A stretch of DNA of 64,000 bases from Planctomycetota bacterium. GTDB lineage: Bacteria; Planctomycetota; UBA1135; UBA2386. The position numbers and the translations under genes were made by a program. Positions within the stretch are counted from its first letter, which is position 1. The number at the start of each line of letters is the position of its first letter. Under the pieces are notes generated by a model. It made no database searches. It was not told where the DNA came from and saw nothing but the letters and a program-made list of their open reading frames with translations. Shown here one piece after another: positions 34,849 to 44,046 of the stretch. The stretch lies in assembly GCA_947444055.1 (NCBI GenBank), contig CANEYR010000006.1:49560-113559 (forward strand), read 5' to 3'.

Positions 34849-34917
34849 CAGTCATGTGGCGGCGGGGCCAAACAGTTGTCAGCTGTGCTGCCTTGTCGCG
34901 GCATTGAGGTGCGTGCC

Positions 34918-35181
34918 ATGACCAACATCCGCTTCGACATCCCTGAACACATCGAACGGACCCTCGGTGGCGACGCCAACAGTCTCGCCAATGCTGCGAA
35001 AGAGGCGTTTCTCGTCGACCTCTACCGAACACAGCGCATCACCCATCACCAGCTTGCCGAGGCGTTGCAGCTGGGGCGTATTGAGACGGATGGCATCCTG
35101 AATCGACACGGCATTCTGCTGGAGTTCAGCCTGCACGATATGGATCAAGAAACGGACCAGTTGCGCAAGGCGCGGGACTGA
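34918..35181 (+). CDS. UPF0175 family protein (antitoxin-like)
   Basis: ANAAKEAFLVDLYRTQRITHHQLAEALQLGRIETDGILNRHGI. Confidence 0.85.
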   Translation: MTNIRFDIPEHIERTLGGDANSLANAAKEAFLVDLYRTQRITHHQLAEALQLGRIETDGILNRHGILLEFSLHDMDQETDQLRKARD

Positions 35182-35640
35182 TGCTCGTCGTCGCCGATAC
35201 GACTCCATCAACTACTTGGTTCTGATCGAGAGTGTCGACGTCCTGCCCGTCTGTTTCGCGCCATCGCTTGTCCGACCGCCGTCGGTGCCGAACTTCTGCA
35301 TCGTGGAGCGCCTGCAGTCGTTCGCGCGTGGGCCAGCAACCCACCGAGTTGACTCGTGGTGATCGATTCAGGTCTGCATCTTGGCCCAGGCGAGAATGCC
35401 GCGATTGCATTGGCTCAGGAACTGCGCGCGGATCGGTTGCTGGCCGACGAGCGTGATGCGAGGGCTCTTGCCCGCCAACGCGGTCTGGAGGTGGTTGGCA
35501 CACTTTCCATTCTCGCCGAAGCCGCGGACAGGGGATTGATCGACCTTGTCGCCAAGATTGAGTTGCTGCGAGGCACCAGCTTCCATGCGAGCAGGCAGTT
35601 GCTGCAAGCTCTGCTCGCTCGCCACCAGAAGCGTCAATAG
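35181..35640 (+). pseudogene. Decayed DUF3368/PIN-like toxin gene (two frameshifts plus an in-frame TGA)
   Basis: MLVVADTTP (frame 35181) -> INYLVLIESVDVLPV (from 35207) -> LFRAIACPTAVGAELLHRGAPAVVRAWASNPPS* (from 35251; TGA 35350-35352) -> LVVIDSGLHLGPGENAAIALAQELRADRLLADERDARALARQ... continuing in that third frame. Confidence 0.85.
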
Positions 35641-35655
35641 AACTGAATCGACCTT

Positions 35656-35703
35656 GCTCGCGGCCGTGCGCGCCGCGCGTCACTCGATCGGCAACAAGTA
35701 GTC
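35656..35703. repeat. 48-bp direct repeat, copy 2 (right flank of cassette)
   Basis: gctcgcggccgtgcgcgccgcgcgtcactcgatcggcaacaagtagtc. Confidence 0.95.
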
Positions 35704-36231
35704 GTAGCCCTCGCCTGCCAGCTCGCGTTTGGACAGACCCAGGCGGTCGCCGCCGGGCGTCACATACACCGCGTCGCTGCGCACACTGGCGAAGTCGAGC
35801 AGCGGCAACGTCGCCAGCAGCTGGCGCCAGGTCGCGCGTTGCTGCCACGTGCTTTCGGGTAGATCACAGCGTTCGCCAACGCTGCGCGCACTAGCACCGT
35901 TCGCTGGCAGCAAGAACATCGCCGACACCAACACGTGGTCCATGCGGGCGCCGGTCGCGTCGGGCACCCATGGCTCGGCACTGTCGTCTTCGATGCCTTT
36001 CACCCAGTCGTCGTATTCGCTCTTGCCGTCGGGCACGAAGTCCCAGAAGCCGAAGGCGCAGCGGTCGATCGAGTCGAGCAGCAGGTTGGCGAGGCTGCCA
36101 TAGAGCCCGCGGTTGTCGGCCAAAGCCAGATCGCGCACGTGTTGGCGCACCACGCTGCACAGCCGAGCGCGCCACGGGTCGTGCGGCGGCGCTTGCACGG
36201 CAACTTGCAGTCCAAAGAAGAGGTCGCTCAT
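35680..36231 (-). CDS. Conserved-looking hypothetical protein, last gene of ATP-grasp/DUF350 operon
   Basis: 183-aa frame 3 bp after the preceding CDS stop; MSDLFFGLQVAVQ...GYDYLLPIE. Confidence 0.6.
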   Translation of the reverse strand: MSDLFFGLQVAVQAPPHDPWRARLCSVVRQHVRDLALADNRGLYGSLANLLLDSIDRCAFGFWDFVPDGKSEYDDWVKGIEDDSAEPWVPDATGARMDHVLVSAMFLLPANGASARSVGERCDLPESTWQQRATWRQLLATLPLLDFASVRSDAVYVTPGGDRLGLSKRELAGEGYDYLLPIE

Positions 36232-36234
36232 CGT

Positions 36235-37560
36235 TCAGCCTCCGTAGCCGCCGCTGGAACGGCCCCACGAGCCACCGCTCGAACCTGAGCCAGTGGTCGT
36301 GCGGCCAAGGAGGGCGATGCCGGTTGCCGCGGAGCCGCGAGTCGTGGGGCGGTAGTTGCCGCCGAACGCGCTCGTCGGTGGCCGCACGGGTGCCACCGGG
36401 CCCGGTTGGCTCGGCCAACGGAAATGGTTCCAGAACCACCAGTGGTGCAGCAGACTGCCACCCCAGTAGTAGCGGGACCCGGTACCGCCGGGGTTCGCCG
36501 CGTCCTTCGGCTTGTCGGTGCCGAGCTGCAAATCGCCGAGCCCGAGCATCTGCACCTCGATCTTGGCGGTGCGGTACTCCACGAAGCGAGCATTCAAGTC
36601 GTCGAGTTCGACGGCGGCAGCATCTTCGGGCACCACATAGAGAATGCGTTCGATGCCGAGGGTCTGCAGATCGCGCGCACTTGGCAGCTTCGCCACGTAG
36701 CGGTTGTCGAAGCGGTCTGGCTCGTTGCGATAGGGCGCCAGCCGTTCGCGAGCGAGCACGAACGCCGGCGGCTTCCTGGTCGCCGGGGCATCGACGAAGC
36801 GCGAGCGGAAGTGCATCACAGCGCCCAACGTCAAATGGGCGGGGACAACACCGCGTGGGTGCGGCCAATTGGCGAAGACGAAGACCGGGGTGACCGCCGG
36901 CACCAAGGCCGCGGCGAAGGCGACGCTCTCCGGTCCTGGCAGGTCGATCACCAGCGCCCACTTGCTGGCCTGCACCGCGTGCTCGAGCAGTTCGCGCACC
37001 GCTTCCCCGCGCCGCCACGCCGTCGCCATCGTCGGCGAACGCACCATCTGGAAGGTGTTCAGCAAACTGTCGTTGCCCTTCGCCGTGAGCGCTTGGAACA
37101 GCGTGGGCACGTAGAACGGCAGCCACGAACTATCGGCGGGCTGCAGTTGGGTGGCGAGTTGGCTGAGCGTGCTGCGATCGAGTGGTTGGTCATCGAACGT
37201 GGTCGGCGTGGCGTTCGTCCACGCGAACGTGGCGCTGTTGCTGCCGAAGTCGAGCCCGTTGGCGCGCTGCAGCTCGAGCGAGGCTTGGTCGATGCCTTGG
37301 TCGACAGGTTGGCTGCGGTTAGCGCGGCGTGTGGCAAGGCTGGCCACTACGACGCCTCCAGCGAGCACCGCACCGCCGAGCCCGAGCATCACCTTCAGAG
37401 CCGAGCGGCGCGATGCATCCATCGACGCTCCCCTGGTGCGCGGCTGGAACGTCGTGGCCTCGGCCAGGCCGTCTTGCCACCAGCGCGCGCCGAGCAGCTC
37501 GTCCTGGTCGTAGCCGACTTGCAGTTGGAACGGCACCTTGCTGTTGGCGGCGTCGCTCAT
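36235..37560 (-). CDS. Hypothetical protein with internal Tat-like/TM anchor and Gly/Ser-rich C-terminus
   Basis: MDASRRSALKVMLGLGGAVLAGGVVVASLATRRA; C-terminus GSGSSGGSWGRSSGGYGG; ATGA overlap with upstream gene. Confidence 0.65.
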   Translation of the reverse strand: MSDAANSKVPFQLQVGYDQDELLGARWWQDGLAEATTFQPRTRGASMDASRRSALKVMLGLGGAVLAGGVVVASLATRRANRSQPVDQGIDQASLELQRANGLDFGSNSATFAWTNATPTTFDDQPLDRSTLSQLATQLQPADSSWLPFYVPTLFQALTAKGNDSLLNTFQMVRSPTMATAWRRGEAVRELLEHAVQASKWALVIDLPGPESVAFAAALVPAVTPVFVFANWPHPRGVVPAHLTLGAVMHFRSRFVDAPATRKPPAFVLARERLAPYRNEPDRFDNRYVAKLPSARDLQTLGIERILYVVPEDAAAVELDDLNARFVEYRTAKIEVQMLGLGDLQLGTDKPKDAANPGGTGSRYYWGGSLLHHWWFWNHFRWPSQPGPVAPVRPPTSAFGGNYRPTTRGSAATGIALLGRTTTGSGSSGGSWGRSSGGYGG

Positions 37561-38810
37561 TGCATGCCCTCCGCGGTGCGCACAAAGACCGGGGCGCAAC
37601 GGGCGGCGTGGTCGGTCGGCAGGTTGGCGGCGTGCACCCTCGCCAGGAGGCCAGCTTCTACACCTGCGATCACGTAGACGCCGTGGTTCACGACCGCACC
37701 GTCCGCATCCCGTTCGGCGGTGAAGTGTTCCTGGGCGATCCAGCGCCGAGCCACCACCGACGTCAGGGTCGCATTCCACGTCGCCTGGTCGACGTCGCAG
37801 CCGATTACCACCTCCGCGCCTTCGCAGCCGTAGTCCGACTTGAGCACCCAGCGATCCTTGTCGTGCCACAGGTCTTCGCGAACGTGCTCAAGTCGGCACG
37901 TGCGCGGCAACCAACGGTGGATCGCGGCTTGCGAGGTCGGCGAGAAGCGCGCCAGCTCTTCCCAGCAGAACGCCAGCGCGCGCTTGTTCTGCGTCAGCAC
38001 GGCCCCGAACGGATTGCAGATCGCGGTGCGGCGTTCGACCTGCGCTTGCAACAAGTGCAGCAACGGCTGCACCAACGGCCCGCGATCGGCGCACAAGGCA
38101 TCGCCGTCCGCCACCGGCAGCCGTTCGCCAAACCAGTCGCTCTTGTAGTGGCGAACGATCACGTCGCACGGCACCTGCAACAGCGTCGCACGTCCGTCCG
38201 CGGCGAGGCCGACGTTGAATGGCGATCCGAGCACGACGGCATGGCCCTTCGCCGCGAGCCATTCCTGGTAGGCCGCGATCATCGACAGGTCTTCGGGCAT
38301 CTCGGTCGGATACAGCAGCCCGATTGTCAGCGCGCCCGTGTGGCCGCAGGCGTGCGCGCGCTGTTCGAGCATGCGAACGAAGCGCTCCGCGAACTGCGCA
38401 TTCGGGTCGAACGTGCCGTCGGGACGGTTCACCAAGCGGTTGCACAACACGGCCTCGGCCTCGCCACTCGGCGTGTCGCTGTTAAGTTCGCAGACCTTGG
38501 CGCCGTGCGCGGTCCAGAACACATCGGCGCGCGCGATGCCGTGCCAATCGGGCGCCGAACATTGCCACATGCCGCGCTGCCAGCGCGTGAGGCCGAAGAA
38601 CGAGTCGGCCAACTCGGGGCTGTCCGCGACGAGGCGCGCCAGCTCGTCATGCACGGCGGCGATGCCGGTCGCGGCGGCGCAGAGGTCGCGATAGCGCGTC
38701 GCCGTCAACAGCACCGGGTCCGCTTGGAAGCGTTCGCTGCCGTCGAGCCAGGGGTCACTGACGATGCCGGTTGCTTGCAGGCCCGCGTTGAGTTGGTGGG
38801 TGCTGTTCAT
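37557..38810 (-). CDS. Glutathionylspermidine synthase-like ATP-grasp ligase (YgiC/YjfC-like)
   Basis: KVCELNSDTPSGEAEA, DRWVLKSDYGCEGAEVVIG, RRWIAQEHFTAERDADG...NHGVYVIAGVEAGLLARVHA; ATGA overlap. Confidence 0.85.
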   Translation of the reverse strand: MNSTHQLNAGLQATGIVSDPWLDGSERFQADPVLLTATRYRDLCAAATGIAAVHDELARLVADSPELADSFFGLTRWQRGMWQCSAPDWHGIARADVFWTAHGAKVCELNSDTPSGEAEAVLCNRLVNRPDGTFDPNAQFAERFVRMLEQRAHACGHTGALTIGLLYPTEMPEDLSMIAAYQEWLAAKGHAVVLGSPFNVGLAADGRATLLQVPCDVIVRHYKSDWFGERLPVADGDALCADRGPLVQPLLHLLQAQVERRTAICNPFGAVLTQNKRALAFCWEELARFSPTSQAAIHRWLPRTCRLEHVREDLWHDKDRWVLKSDYGCEGAEVVIGCDVDQATWNATLTSVVARRWIAQEHFTAERDADGAVVNHGVYVIAGVEAGLLARVHAANLPTDHAARCAPVFVRTAEGMQ

Positions 38811-39625
38811 GCGAGGGCTCCCACGAACAAGGCGACGGCGAGGTAGGTCATGCCTTCGAGCGCGCCAGCGCCGACGTCGGCGCGGTCGGCGATCGCGCGA
38901 TCGAGTTCGCCGCCGAGCCACTGCGGTCTGGCCCGCAGCACCAGGCACTGCACTACGACTTGGCGCAGCGGCCACACCACGAGGCATTCGCATAGGGCGA
39001 TGCCGTAGTCGCGCAGTGCTGGCCACGTTCCCTGGAATTCGCCTTCGGTCGCATGCGCAATCACGATCGCCAACGCGATGGTGAGTCCGCCGTGCGACAG
39101 CGCCGCGGCGACGTTGCCTAAGAGAATCTGCGCCCGGTCGTCGTAGGTGGTGAGGCAGCGAAACAACCAGACCAACGCCAGCAAGGTGGCTTGGCCGATC
39201 GCGAACGACAGCACGGCGATCGTCAACTCCGCGAACGACGAACCGCCAAACACGTTCGCGATCAGGATGCCGATCGCGACCGTATGCGCCGCCGCCGCCG
39301 TGGCTGCCGCGAGGTTGTCACTGCGCGCCGCCGGGCCGAGGCCGCGCATCGCCCACAGGCCCAGCGCTTGCGCCACTTCGAGCGCGAGCAAGCCGGAGAA
39401 GCCGAACATGCCCATCCACAGAATGTCGGTGACGAGGTTGTCGCCGCGACGGCACGCGGTCGCCAAGGTGCCCGCCAGCAAGAAGATGCCCAACACGCGC
39501 GCCGCCTGCAGCAGTCGTCGCCCTGGAGTGCTCTCGGGAGGACGTTTGGCGAGGGTGCGGACGAGCGCGTCGAGAGCCAGGAGCACGCACACCGCCGACA
39601 CGCCGAAGGCCATCATTTCCAACAT
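38807..39625 (-). CDS. Tandem DUF350 (YjfL-like) membrane protein
   Basis: two related membrane units; AQILLGNVAAALSHGGLTIALAIVIAHATEGEFQGTW is DUF350-like, with SDNLAAATAAAAHTVAIGILIANVFGG as first unit. Confidence 0.75.
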   Translation of the reverse strand: MLEMMAFGVSAVCVLLALDALVRTLAKRPPESTPGRRLLQAARVLGIFLLAGTLATACRRGDNLVTDILWMGMFGFSGLLALEVAQALGLWAMRGLGPAARSDNLAAATAAAAHTVAIGILIANVFGGSSFAELTIAVLSFAIGQATLLALVWLFRCLTTYDDRAQILLGNVAAALSHGGLTIALAIVIAHATEGEFQGTWPALRDYGIALCECLVVWPLRQVVVQCLVLRARPQWLGGELDRAIADRADVGAGALEGMTYLAVALFVGALA

Positions 39626-39682
39626 GGCGCGCACTGTGCGCGGGCATTCACTTGCACGCAAGCCACCGCCGCGGCGCCGCTC

Positions 39683-40588
39683 TCACTTCGCGCGCCGTCC
39701 CGTGTGCATCGCCAACCGCACCGCGGCAGCATCGCGGCGGCCAGGCAGCAGGGCAGTGACCGCCTGGTCTGGCGCCGTCAACAGCGCGCGCAGGCTCGCG
39801 GGCACCTCGGCCACCACCGTTGCTTGCGCATCCAGCAACTGCACGACGAGGTCGCGGCCCTCGCCCACGAGCGTGCACGCCGCACGCTGCGCGGTGTCCG
39901 TCTGCTGCGCGATCGATTCGTTCAGCGCTGCTACCGTCGCCGGATACTGCGCCCCGCGGCGTAGCGTGACTTCGTAGTTGCCCCACGAGTCCGCGACCCC
40001 AACCGCCAACCAAGCACCGAAGCTGCTGGTGTCGAGGCGCAACGTCGCGGCCGGCACCGAGAACGCCCGGTCGATCCAGCCGGACTGCCACCCGACCAAC
40101 GCCACGACGAGCACGGCGGCGGGCGCGAGCAGCCGACGCTCCCGCCGCGCCAGACCGAAGCGAGCGCGTGCCTTGGGCTCGGCCGGGACGACATCGTCGG
40201 CGGTGCGCGGGCGTCGTCGCGTCAACGGTTCGATGCGGTCCCCGCGAACGACGAACAACGTCTCCGCGACTTCGTCTTGGTGAATGAGCCGACAGCGCAG
40301 GTTCGTCTCGACGCTGTTCTTGCCGGCACTGAGCACCAGTTCTTGTAGGGCGGTGAGAAAGTTCGCCTGCGCTTCGCTCGCAAACCTCGACGGGTCGATG
40401 CGCGTTGCCTCGGGAATGAGCGAGAAGCGACCGCCGTGCAGCTCGCACCGAAACCGGCCCGCGCCCGCCGCACTCAAGCTGCGCACCGCCGCCTGCAGCT
40501 TGGTCGCATCGCCAACGCGGCCATCGAGAATGCCCTCGACGAACGCCGCCAGCGGCACGTCGTGGCTCTCGGCGTCACCGTCCTTCAC
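39683..40588 (-). CDS. Hypothetical single-TM protein with cytoplasmic N-terminal domain
   Basis: GTG start overlapping previous stop (GTGA); TM LLAPAAVLVVALVGWQSGW. Confidence 0.55.
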   Translation of the reverse strand: MKDGDAESHDVPLAAFVEGILDGRVGDATKLQAAVRSLSAAGAGRFRCELHGGRFSLIPEATRIDPSRFASEAQANFLTALQELVLSAGKNSVETNLRCRLIHQDEVAETLFVVRGDRIEPLTRRRPRTADDVVPAEPKARARFGLARRERRLLAPAAVLVVALVGWQSGWIDRAFSVPAATLRLDTSSFGAWLAVGVADSWGNYEVTLRRGAQYPATVAALNESIAQQTDTAQRAACTLVGEGRDLVVQLLDAQATVVAEVPASLRALLTAPDQAVTALLPGRRDAAAVRLAMHTGRRAK

Positions 40589-41133
40589 GCCAAGTCCCCA
40601 CCAAACTGCTCGACCTTCGCCAGCGGCACCCAATCGGGCATGCCTTCGCACCACAGCAACGTGCCGCGATCAATCGCCTTCGCTTGCAGCAGATGGCGAA
40701 GGGTGTCCGCCGACACCGGGCCGAGGCGCTCTTTGCCACGCGCGTAGAACCACAGGTCGCGGTCGGGCAGTTCGGGTGGCGCGGCGTAGCCGGCGAGTTC
40801 CGGCGCCTCGTCCGTGCGCAGGCCGAGCGCTTGGTCGTGCGCGCCGAGGCGCCGATCGATCTGGGAATGGCGTTGGTCCGCGATCTGGCGTTCCTTCGCC
40901 AACTGCTCGCGCAGGCGGCGCGCCTCCAATTGGTGGTTCTGATGGCCTTCGTGTTCCTCTTTGAGGTTTGGCAACACCAGCACCAGCACGAGGCCAATGC
41001 AGCTCAGGAAGAAGCCGACGAAAAACCAGCCGATACCGCTGCGGCCGCGCCCCGAGGCGATCAAGGCACACAGGACGCCGAACACCAGGGAGACGCCGAT
41101 TTCAGCGCCATGAACTTCCACGGATGCGAGCAT
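40585..41133 (-). CDS. Membrane protein with coiled coil and C-terminal GYF_2 (DUF4339) domain
   Basis: SGIGWFFVGFFLSCIGLVLVLVLPNLK, heptad-rich segment, LWFYARGKERLGPVSADTLRHLLQAKAIDRGTLLWCEGMPDWVPLAKV. Confidence 0.8.
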   Translation of the reverse strand: MLASVEVHGAEIGVSLVFGVLCALIASGRGRSGIGWFFVGFFLSCIGLVLVLVLPNLKEEHEGHQNHQLEARRLREQLAKERQIADQRHSQIDRRLGAHDQALGLRTDEAPELAGYAAPPELPDRDLWFYARGKERLGPVSADTLRHLLQAKAIDRGTLLWCEGMPDWVPLAKVEQFGGDLA

Positions 41134-41143
41134 TGGTTTGGGA

Positions 41144-41575
41144 TCAGTAGGTAACGCGCAGCAACCAACCGAGCAGCAGCGTGACGACGAACCAGCGATG
41201 ACCGCGTCGGCGCCAGAGTCGGTGCGACGGCAATTCGACCCGGCGGCGAAGTATGTCGAAATGCAGCACGGCGGCACCAACCAACAAGGTGGCGATGGCG
41301 ATGCCGGTCGGGTGGGTGGCGAACGACAAGGCAAAGTCACCTTGCAGTGCGGCCGCTGTGCTGCGCAGCAGTCCGCAGCCGGGGCAGGCGAGGGGGCCAA
41401 AGCAGGCGCCGATTGGGCACTCTGGGCCGCGCACACCAAACCACGTGGCGCCTGCCTTCGTGGCCTTCGCGGTGACGCCAGCGGTCAGGGCTAGAACGAT
41501 GGCGACCGTGCGCACGATGGGTTCGCGCAGCGATGGCGGCGAGGGGTTCCCTGGCGGCGGTGGCACGCCGCGCAT
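41144..41575 (-). CDS. DUF2752 membrane protein
   Basis: CPIGACFGPLACPGCGLLRSTAAALQGDFALSFATHP (CPGCGxxR signature). Confidence 0.75.
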   Translation of the reverse strand: MRGVPPPPGNPSPPSLREPIVRTVAIVLALTAGVTAKATKAGATWFGVRGPECPIGACFGPLACPGCGLLRSTAAALQGDFALSFATHPTGIAIATLLVGAAVLHFDILRRRVELPSHRLWRRRGHRWFVVTLLLGWLLRVTY

Positions 41576-41667: not shown

Positions 41668-43302
<1,635 letters not shown>

Positions 43303-44046
43303 TCAGGTTCTCGAAGTTGTCAGTCGCTGCAGGAAGGCGTCGTAGTCGCTGCGTGTCTCGATGCCCCACGGGTCACCTTGCGCATCAAGCACGTGCATCG
43401 CAATGTCGTTCTCAAGGAAGCGCAATTGTTCGAGGCTTTCGGCTTCGGCCAGGCCGCTGCTTGGCAACGGTGGAATGCGCAGCAGGGTCGCGCGAGCGAA
43501 GCCGTAGACGCCGATGTGCCGCTGCAGCGCGTAGCTGCCATCCTTGACGAACGGCACCACGGCGCGGCTGAAGTAGAGCGCCTTGCCGTTGCCGCCGCGC
43601 ACGACCTTGACGACGTTGGGGTTGTTGGCGACGTCGGGATCGAGCAGGGGCACGCACAGCGTGTTGCACACCGCTTCGCCTGCGAGCAGTTGGGCAACAA
43701 TCGCTTCGAGGTCGCGCGGGGCGATCTCTGGCCAGTCGCCTTGGATGTCGAGCACCGCTTGGCAAGGAATGGCGGCGGCGGCTTCGGCGCAGCGCTCACT
43801 GCCGGTGCGGCAGGCCGGGCTCGTGCGCACGACGCCGTAGCCATGGCGTTTGGCGACGGCTTCGACGACGTCGTCATCAGTGGCGACCACGACGCGGTCG
43901 ATGTTGCGCGCCTTCTTGGCCTGGTCGCAGGTGTGCAAGAACAGTTCTTGGCCGCTTTCGCGCAGCAGCGCCTTGCCGGGCAGGCGTTGGCTGCCGACCC
44001 GCACCGGGATGATGGCGAGCGCTCGCACTGGCGAGGACGCACTCAT
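43303..44046 (-). CDS. kdsB: 3-deoxy-manno-octulosonate cytidylyltransferase
   Basis: AIIPVRVGSQRLPGKAL...VVATDDDVVEAV...IQGDWPEIAPRDLEAIV...KVVRGGNGKALYFSRAVVPF. Confidence 0.9.
   Translation of the reverse strand: MSASSPVRALAIIPVRVGSQRLPGKALLRESGQELFLHTCDQAKKARNIDRVVVATDDDVVEAVAKRHGYGVVRTSPACRTGSERCAEAAAAIPCQAVLDIQGDWPEIAPRDLEAIVAQLLAGEAVCNTLCVPLLDPDVANNPNVVKVVRGGNGKALYFSRAVVPFVKDGSYALQRHIGVYGFARATLLRIPPLPSSGLAEAESLEQLRFLENDIAMHVLDAQGDPWGIETRSDYDAFLQRLTTSRT

Follow-up and report, generated by a model that had tools for sequence, protein, structure and literature searches.

We analyzed a run of genes on the minus strand of a 64,000 nucleotide stretch of contig CANEYR010000006.1 (here referred to as the window), which belongs to a Planctomycetota assembly of 5.35 Mb in 237 contigs with a completeness of ~90%. 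Its relatives are Planctomycetota metagenome-assembled genomes (MAGs). The run contains a membrane protein with tandem DUF350, a GspS-like ATP-grasp ligase and two proteins here named F2 and F3, preceded by three further genes (Table 1). All seven open reading frames (ORFs) were found at the positions and with the junctions given in an earlier note on this DNA. The boundaries drawn in that note, however, held only in part: the run extends through pyrG and kdsB (41668-44046, minus strand), which lie directly upstream on the same strand, and the conserved unit comprises the four downstream genes only. The DUF350 protein was called tandem because Pfam DUF350 matches two stretches of it. For F2, F3 and the single-transmembrane (TM) protein of 301 amino acids (aa) the Pfam scan gave no family above the cut-off.

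Table 1. Genes and features of the minus-strand run, with positions in the window (Tat, twin-arginine translocation)
Feature	Position	Strand	Evidence	Remark
DUF2752 protein	41144..41575	-	Pfam DUF2752, 1.6e-10	non-core, genus-specific neighbour
GYF_2 and TM protein	40585..41133	-	Pfam GYF_2, 1.1e-15	non-core, genus-specific neighbour
Single-TM protein, 301 aa	39683..40588	-	GTGA overlap with GYF_2 gene	non-core, genus-specific
Tandem DUF350 (YjfL-type) membrane protein	38807..39625	-	Pfam DUF350, 1.6e-18	first core gene
GspS/YgiC/YjfC-like ATP-grasp ligase, 417 aa	37557..38810	-	Pfam GSP_synth, 5.1e-12; ATGA overlap with DUF350 gene	
F2, Tat/TM-like Gly/Ser-tailed partner, 441 aa	36235..37560	-	ATGA overlap with ligase gene	
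F2 C-terminal tail (GSGSSGGSWGRSSGGYGG and stop codon)	36235..36291	-	tail comparison across loci	proposed ligase substrate
F3 protein, 183 aa	35680..36231	-	3-bp gap after F2	last core gene

The genes of the conserved core are, in order, DUF350 – GspS-like ATP-grasp – F2 – F3. Relatives were taken from whole genomes and named genome contigs, in which genes were called by a simple codon-model script; for the GC-rich loci L085, L086 and L100 same-strand ORFs were read directly in place of the gene caller. The four proteins shared 43-74% identity with their planctomycete relatives (61-66% for the DUF350 protein, with unchanged gene order). The full core order was present in the Planctomycetota MAGs L018 and L023 and, truncated, in L020 and L022. 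It was found in Myxococcota (Hyalangium, Archangium) and in the deltaproteobacterial MAG L033 as well. In Sorangium (L030) and L032 no DUF350 gene was called, and the set there was ligase – F2 – F3. A wider sample added further Planctomycetota families with the core (L097-L099, L091). From this degree of identity together with the same order in Myxococcota it follows that the genes are under protein-level conservation. The synteny on which the earlier note had made its proposed system depend is kept for these four genes in Myxococcota as well as in several families of Planctomycetota.

The seven genes, however, are not one system. The genes lie close together in the window and in part overlap by 4 bp, which would suit a single membrane ligation machine that includes the GYF_2, single-TM and DUF2752 proteins, as the earlier note had assumed, but we regard such a machine as very improbable. 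Among the loci examined, the three extra genes were found near the core only in the same-genus locus L019 and are absent beside it elsewhere. Even in L019 the gene of an Rce1-like CPBP membrane protease (L019:7124-8116) lies between the single-TM gene and DUF350. Another locus of the genus, L034, carries pyrG, then a 63-aa ORF alone, and then the DUF350–ligase pair. Since they are confined to L019, separated there from DUF350 and missing in L034, the three genes are local neighbours. Elsewhere the genes upstream of the core were unrelated (DUF1415, DinB, guanylate kinase).

The ligase passed the Pfam model GSP_synth (PF03738) with 46.1 bits against a curated cut-off of 29.3, over residues 82-407. 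Its active-site residues were mapped in an alignment that included YgiC, YjfC and Gss of E. coli as well as homologues from five phyla. R94, D96, E108, N110 and S115 correspond to Gss R316, D318, E330, N332 and S337, and E173, K276, K324 and R391 correspond to Gss E391, K498, K533 and R598. All nine residues checked against E. coli Gss were present; the ATP-grasp active site is intact, and the lack of ATP/Mg-binding residues that the earlier note had named as refuting its proposal was not observed. In Gss, the C-terminus of glutathione is phosphorylated and then attacked by spermidine, Glu391 being key for the binding of spermidine while Ser337 helps the attack (PMC6272389). The window ligase aligned to the synthetase domain of Gss alone, the N-terminal amidase domain being absent.

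Identity with E. coli YgiC and YjfC was ~17-19%. Searches of the PDB with phmmer or with a profile of close ligase homologues gave no match at E<=1. A family-wide ligase alignment matched the PDB structures of YgiC, YjfC and Gss, a match that is circular because the alignment includes the E. coli sequences, and a weak match resulted when eight close homologues were compared by hhalign with YjfC alone. As the profile matches were weak or circular, membership of the YgiC/YjfC type was based on Pfam and residue mapping. On these grounds, together with the DUF350 match, the link to YjfC/YgiC and YjfL drawn in the earlier note was borne out, and the four core genes together form a relative of the yjfL-yjfM-yjfC set of enterobacteria. 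A search for plasmid-borne copies of the window ligase found none.

The alignment of 12 F2 homologues gave a cytoplasmic, conserved N-terminus (GARWWQ) and a twin-arginine/TM segment with the pattern SRRxALK, for which one member reached TAT_signal (0.0014). According to this alignment and an AlphaFold2 model the body (~110-410) is Rossmann-like, with the invariant polar motifs NWPHP and FDNRY; the invariant polar residues are N231, H234, H242, D285, N286, R287, D320 and D321. The Gly/Ser tail is disordered and ends in SSGGYGG, with S431 and R434 nearly invariant and SSGGSWGRSSGGYGG as the terminal residues of F2. No fold match to the model was found in the PDB at E<=0.001, and the F2 family matched no Pfam family, DUF1190 included. 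Since some planctomycete relatives without a visible signal or TM segment retain the body motifs and the tail, export of F2 is not universal. Short relatives of this kind occur at L084, L095, L096, L067, L069 and L071, with tails such as GGFGGWIPEPSQSSGSG.

F3 follows F2 in Planctomycetota and Myxococcota. It is an alpha/beta protein with no visible signal or TM segment (AlphaFold2 pLDDT 87.6). No Pfam family and, for its model, no PDB fold match were found, and the family has no invariant Cys or His. DUF1517, suspected from a sequence pattern, found no support, and neither did DUF2170 and DUF2491, as no F3 member matched any of them in Pfam; the other proteins of the run gave no match to DUF2491 or DUF2170 either.

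Related ligases of Proteobacteria, Bacillota, Cyanobacteriota, Myxococcota and Planctomycetota have a neighbour with a tail like that of F2. The bodies of these partners are unrelated (DUF1190, small lipoproteins, F2), whereas the tails are alike in being rich in Gly and Ser and in carrying motifs of the GGFG or GGSW type. In E. coli, YgiC and YjfC, annotated as peptide-spermidine ligases, adjoin YgiB and YjfM, both terminating in GG; YjfM ends in RGGYGRSSSARGHWGG and YgiB in RGGFG...SSRSMGG. Similar tails were present next to ligases of Rhizobium, Pseudomonas, Loktanella, Paracoccus, Azospirillum B510, Acinetobacter, Klebsiella, Bacillus, Brevibacillus and Leptolyngbya.

Under strict criteria a tail was accepted if G and S made up >=40% of the final 25 residues and the protein ended in two small residues. 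In the loci of the plasmid collection and of E. coli, 10 of 11 partners had such a tail compared to 0 of 145 other genes. For full-length F2 the numbers were 11/11 and 0/173, respectively. Taken together, 21 of 22 partners but none of the 318 other genes of these loci passed. Of 37 tails, 36 had G, S or A as the terminal residue and one had H; pooled over all tails, the final 20 positions contained 72 K/R versus 7 D/E.

A second and more independent line of evidence came from a sample of 300 Planctomycetota genomes, in which all other GSP_synth loci (22) were examined. Here the tail criterion was slightly looser than the strict one, and the tails at L069 and L079 were recognised by eye. An adjacent Gly/Ser-tailed protein (GGFG, GGSW or similar) was present at 17 of the 22 loci, and no tailed neighbour was found at L075, L077, L080, L081 and L082. 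The position of Gss residue 391 was occupied by Glu or Asp in all tailed loci and by Ser, Pro or Tyr in all untailed ones (17/17 versus 0/5, Fisher p = 3.8e-5, relatedness uncorrected, with three of the five untailed loci belonging to two related genera). Tailed partner and acidic residue were also missing together on an Azospirillum TSH58 plasmid (L047), where the ligase has lost D318, E330, E391, K498 and K533. GSP_synth-like proteins with neither an acidic residue 391 nor a tailed partner were seen at L089, L090 and L094 (as well as L092 and L093) and probably have a different activity; those of L090 and L094 terminate in an Arg-rich extension, and a membrane protein encoded nearby at these loci looks UbiA-like.

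The common tail and its joint loss with the acidic residue lend independent comparative support to the suggestion of the earlier note that an amine may be conjugated to the tail of a partner protein. We give an even chance to the reading in which the C-terminal carboxylate of the partner tail is coupled to an amine by the ligase, with the F2 tail as the most likely acyl donor. The tail is the best candidate substrate, since almost all related ligases examined have it beside them, on proteins that are otherwise unrelated. The ligase would phosphorylate the C-terminal carboxylate using ATP, the flexible tail of small residues entering the site at which Gss accepts the Gly end of glutathione. An amine in the pocket with the acidic E173, the counterpart of Gss Glu391, would then attack the acyl phosphate to form an amide. 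F2 may be modified in the cytosol, prior to its membrane insertion or Tat export or while these proceed. This would yield a protein associated with the membrane or envelope, with an amine added to a flexible tail that is basic to begin with. Modified F2 might act together with the DUF350 membrane protein, with F3 as a cytosolic adaptor, but these roles of DUF350 and F3 are guesses. In a broader form, this would be a protein modification widespread in bacteria: genome-encoded Gly/Ser tails of the GGFG or GGSW type on unrelated proteins would be C-terminal tags, and dedicated GspS-like ligases would add a polyamine or another amine to them as a cap. YgiB and YjfM would then be natural substrates of YgiC and YjfC, and F2 would take their place in Planctomycetota and Myxococcota; this we put somewhat below an even chance.

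Alternatively, the ligase could produce a diffusible peptide-amine metabolite similar to glutathionylspermidine, with the unmodified partner serving as sensor, carrier or docking platform and its disordered tail binding the ligase or the membrane. The substrate of E. coli Gss is indeed a free tripeptide (PMC6272389), and the Rossmann-like body of F2 with its invariant polar residues suggests a ligand site of its own. However, it is the tail rather than the body that all partners have in common, and this tail has a free G/S/A end as expected of a GspS-type acyl donor, so that we consider a free metabolite rather unlikely. Several points nevertheless weigh against modification of the tail. The partners of the first set had been chosen by eye before the strict criteria were applied, the loci are phylogenetically related and the F2 proteins are mutual homologues. 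The tails end in Ser, Ala and once in His, not in Gly alone, and Gly/Ser-rich tails can have other uses. Moreover, E. coli Gss carries Glu391 though its substrate is glutathione.

A further difficulty concerns the amine. No match to S-adenosylmethionine (AdoMet) decarboxylase or NspC was found in the window genome (~90% complete), and the supply of spermidine is therefore unproven. AdoMet decarboxylase was present in 4 of 14 other carriers tested, all four cultured myxobacteria, and in none of the tested Planctomycetota carriers. These absences would suit a variant that is compatible with tail modification, in which the tail is modified in this lineage by a non-polyamine such as agmatine, putrescine, an amino acid or a peptide. 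The window genome encodes three ornithine/arginine/diaminopimelate-type decarboxylases of one Pfam family, and a 745-aa ORF among them resembles biosynthetic arginine decarboxylase by eye. On the other hand, the acidic amine-binding residue is retained in all 17 tailed planctomycete loci, the E. coli homologues use spermidine, polyamines can be imported, and the genome is incomplete. We regard this variant as possible but somewhat doubtful.

The term undescribed, which the earlier note had used for the system, was too strong with regard to operons of DUF350, GspS-like ATP-grasp and an exported partner, which are known in Proteobacteria (PMC11237479). Operons in which DUF350 and a GspS-like ATP-grasp are combined with DUF1190 and DUF2491, some of them also with PspA, have been described, and polyamine sensing or modification of membrane structure was proposed for them (Ravi et al. 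2024, PMC11237479). The window locus shares with the Group 3 operons linked to the phage shock protein (PSP) system (PMC11237479) the GspS-related ATP-grasp, the adjacent DUF350 and the exported partner, but it lacks the potassium channel, DUF1190 and DUF2491. A link to PspA was rejected, as the window genome (~90% complete) contained no PspA_IM30 match.

E. coli yjfI-yjfJ-yjfK-yjfL-yjfM-yjfC and ygiB-ygiC resemble the locus in DUF350, the GspS-like ligase and an exported Gly/Ser-tailed neighbour with a GG end. In E. coli, however, the partner body is DUF1190 instead of F2, and yjfI, the PspA-like yjfJ and the DUF2491 gene yjfK have no counterpart in the window locus, which in turn carries F3 and a tandem DUF350. 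E. coli Gss (PDB 2io7) and trypanothione synthetase have the ATP-grasp synthetase domain and identical active-site residues in common with the window ligase, but the latter differs by the missing amidase domain and low identity, and glutathione is unsupported as its substrate.

E. coli YgiC and YjfC were reported as peptide-spermidine ligases (Pederick 2023, as cited in PMC12568646), and spermidine on a C-terminal Gly of a protein has a precedent in SUMO and ubiquitin (PMC12270671). Our literature search, which covered neither Iyer 2009 nor Pederick 2023, both of which may state the idea, found no paper proposing the tailed partner as substrate and none naming a natural substrate of YgiC/YjfC. 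If tail capping is true, natural substrates of the YgiC/YjfC family would be named (YgiB and YjfM; F2 outside Proteobacteria), C-terminal amine capping of proteins would join the bacterial modifications, and the connection of polyamines and DUF350 with envelope stress that has been noted would gain a possible mechanism. F2 and F3 are two newly described families absent from Pfam, and the common tail makes the substrate question of the ligase family directly testable.

Consensus scans of the locus gave no promoter, and terminator-like sites were rarer than expected by chance. On the plus strand (34876-35640) a UPF0175 protein is followed by a DUF3368 (PIN-like) fragment, both converging on the 3' end of the operon; these genes look like a toxin-antitoxin pair. 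In the Myxococcota loci L026-L028 and L032, a family with an HxD...H oxygenase-like pattern and no Pfam match (F4) was present upstream of the ligase set. Additionally, the same loci carried a 2OG-Fe(II) oxygenase-like gene (F5) downstream on the opposite strand, and F4 and F5 could possibly provide an additional modification step in Myxococcota.

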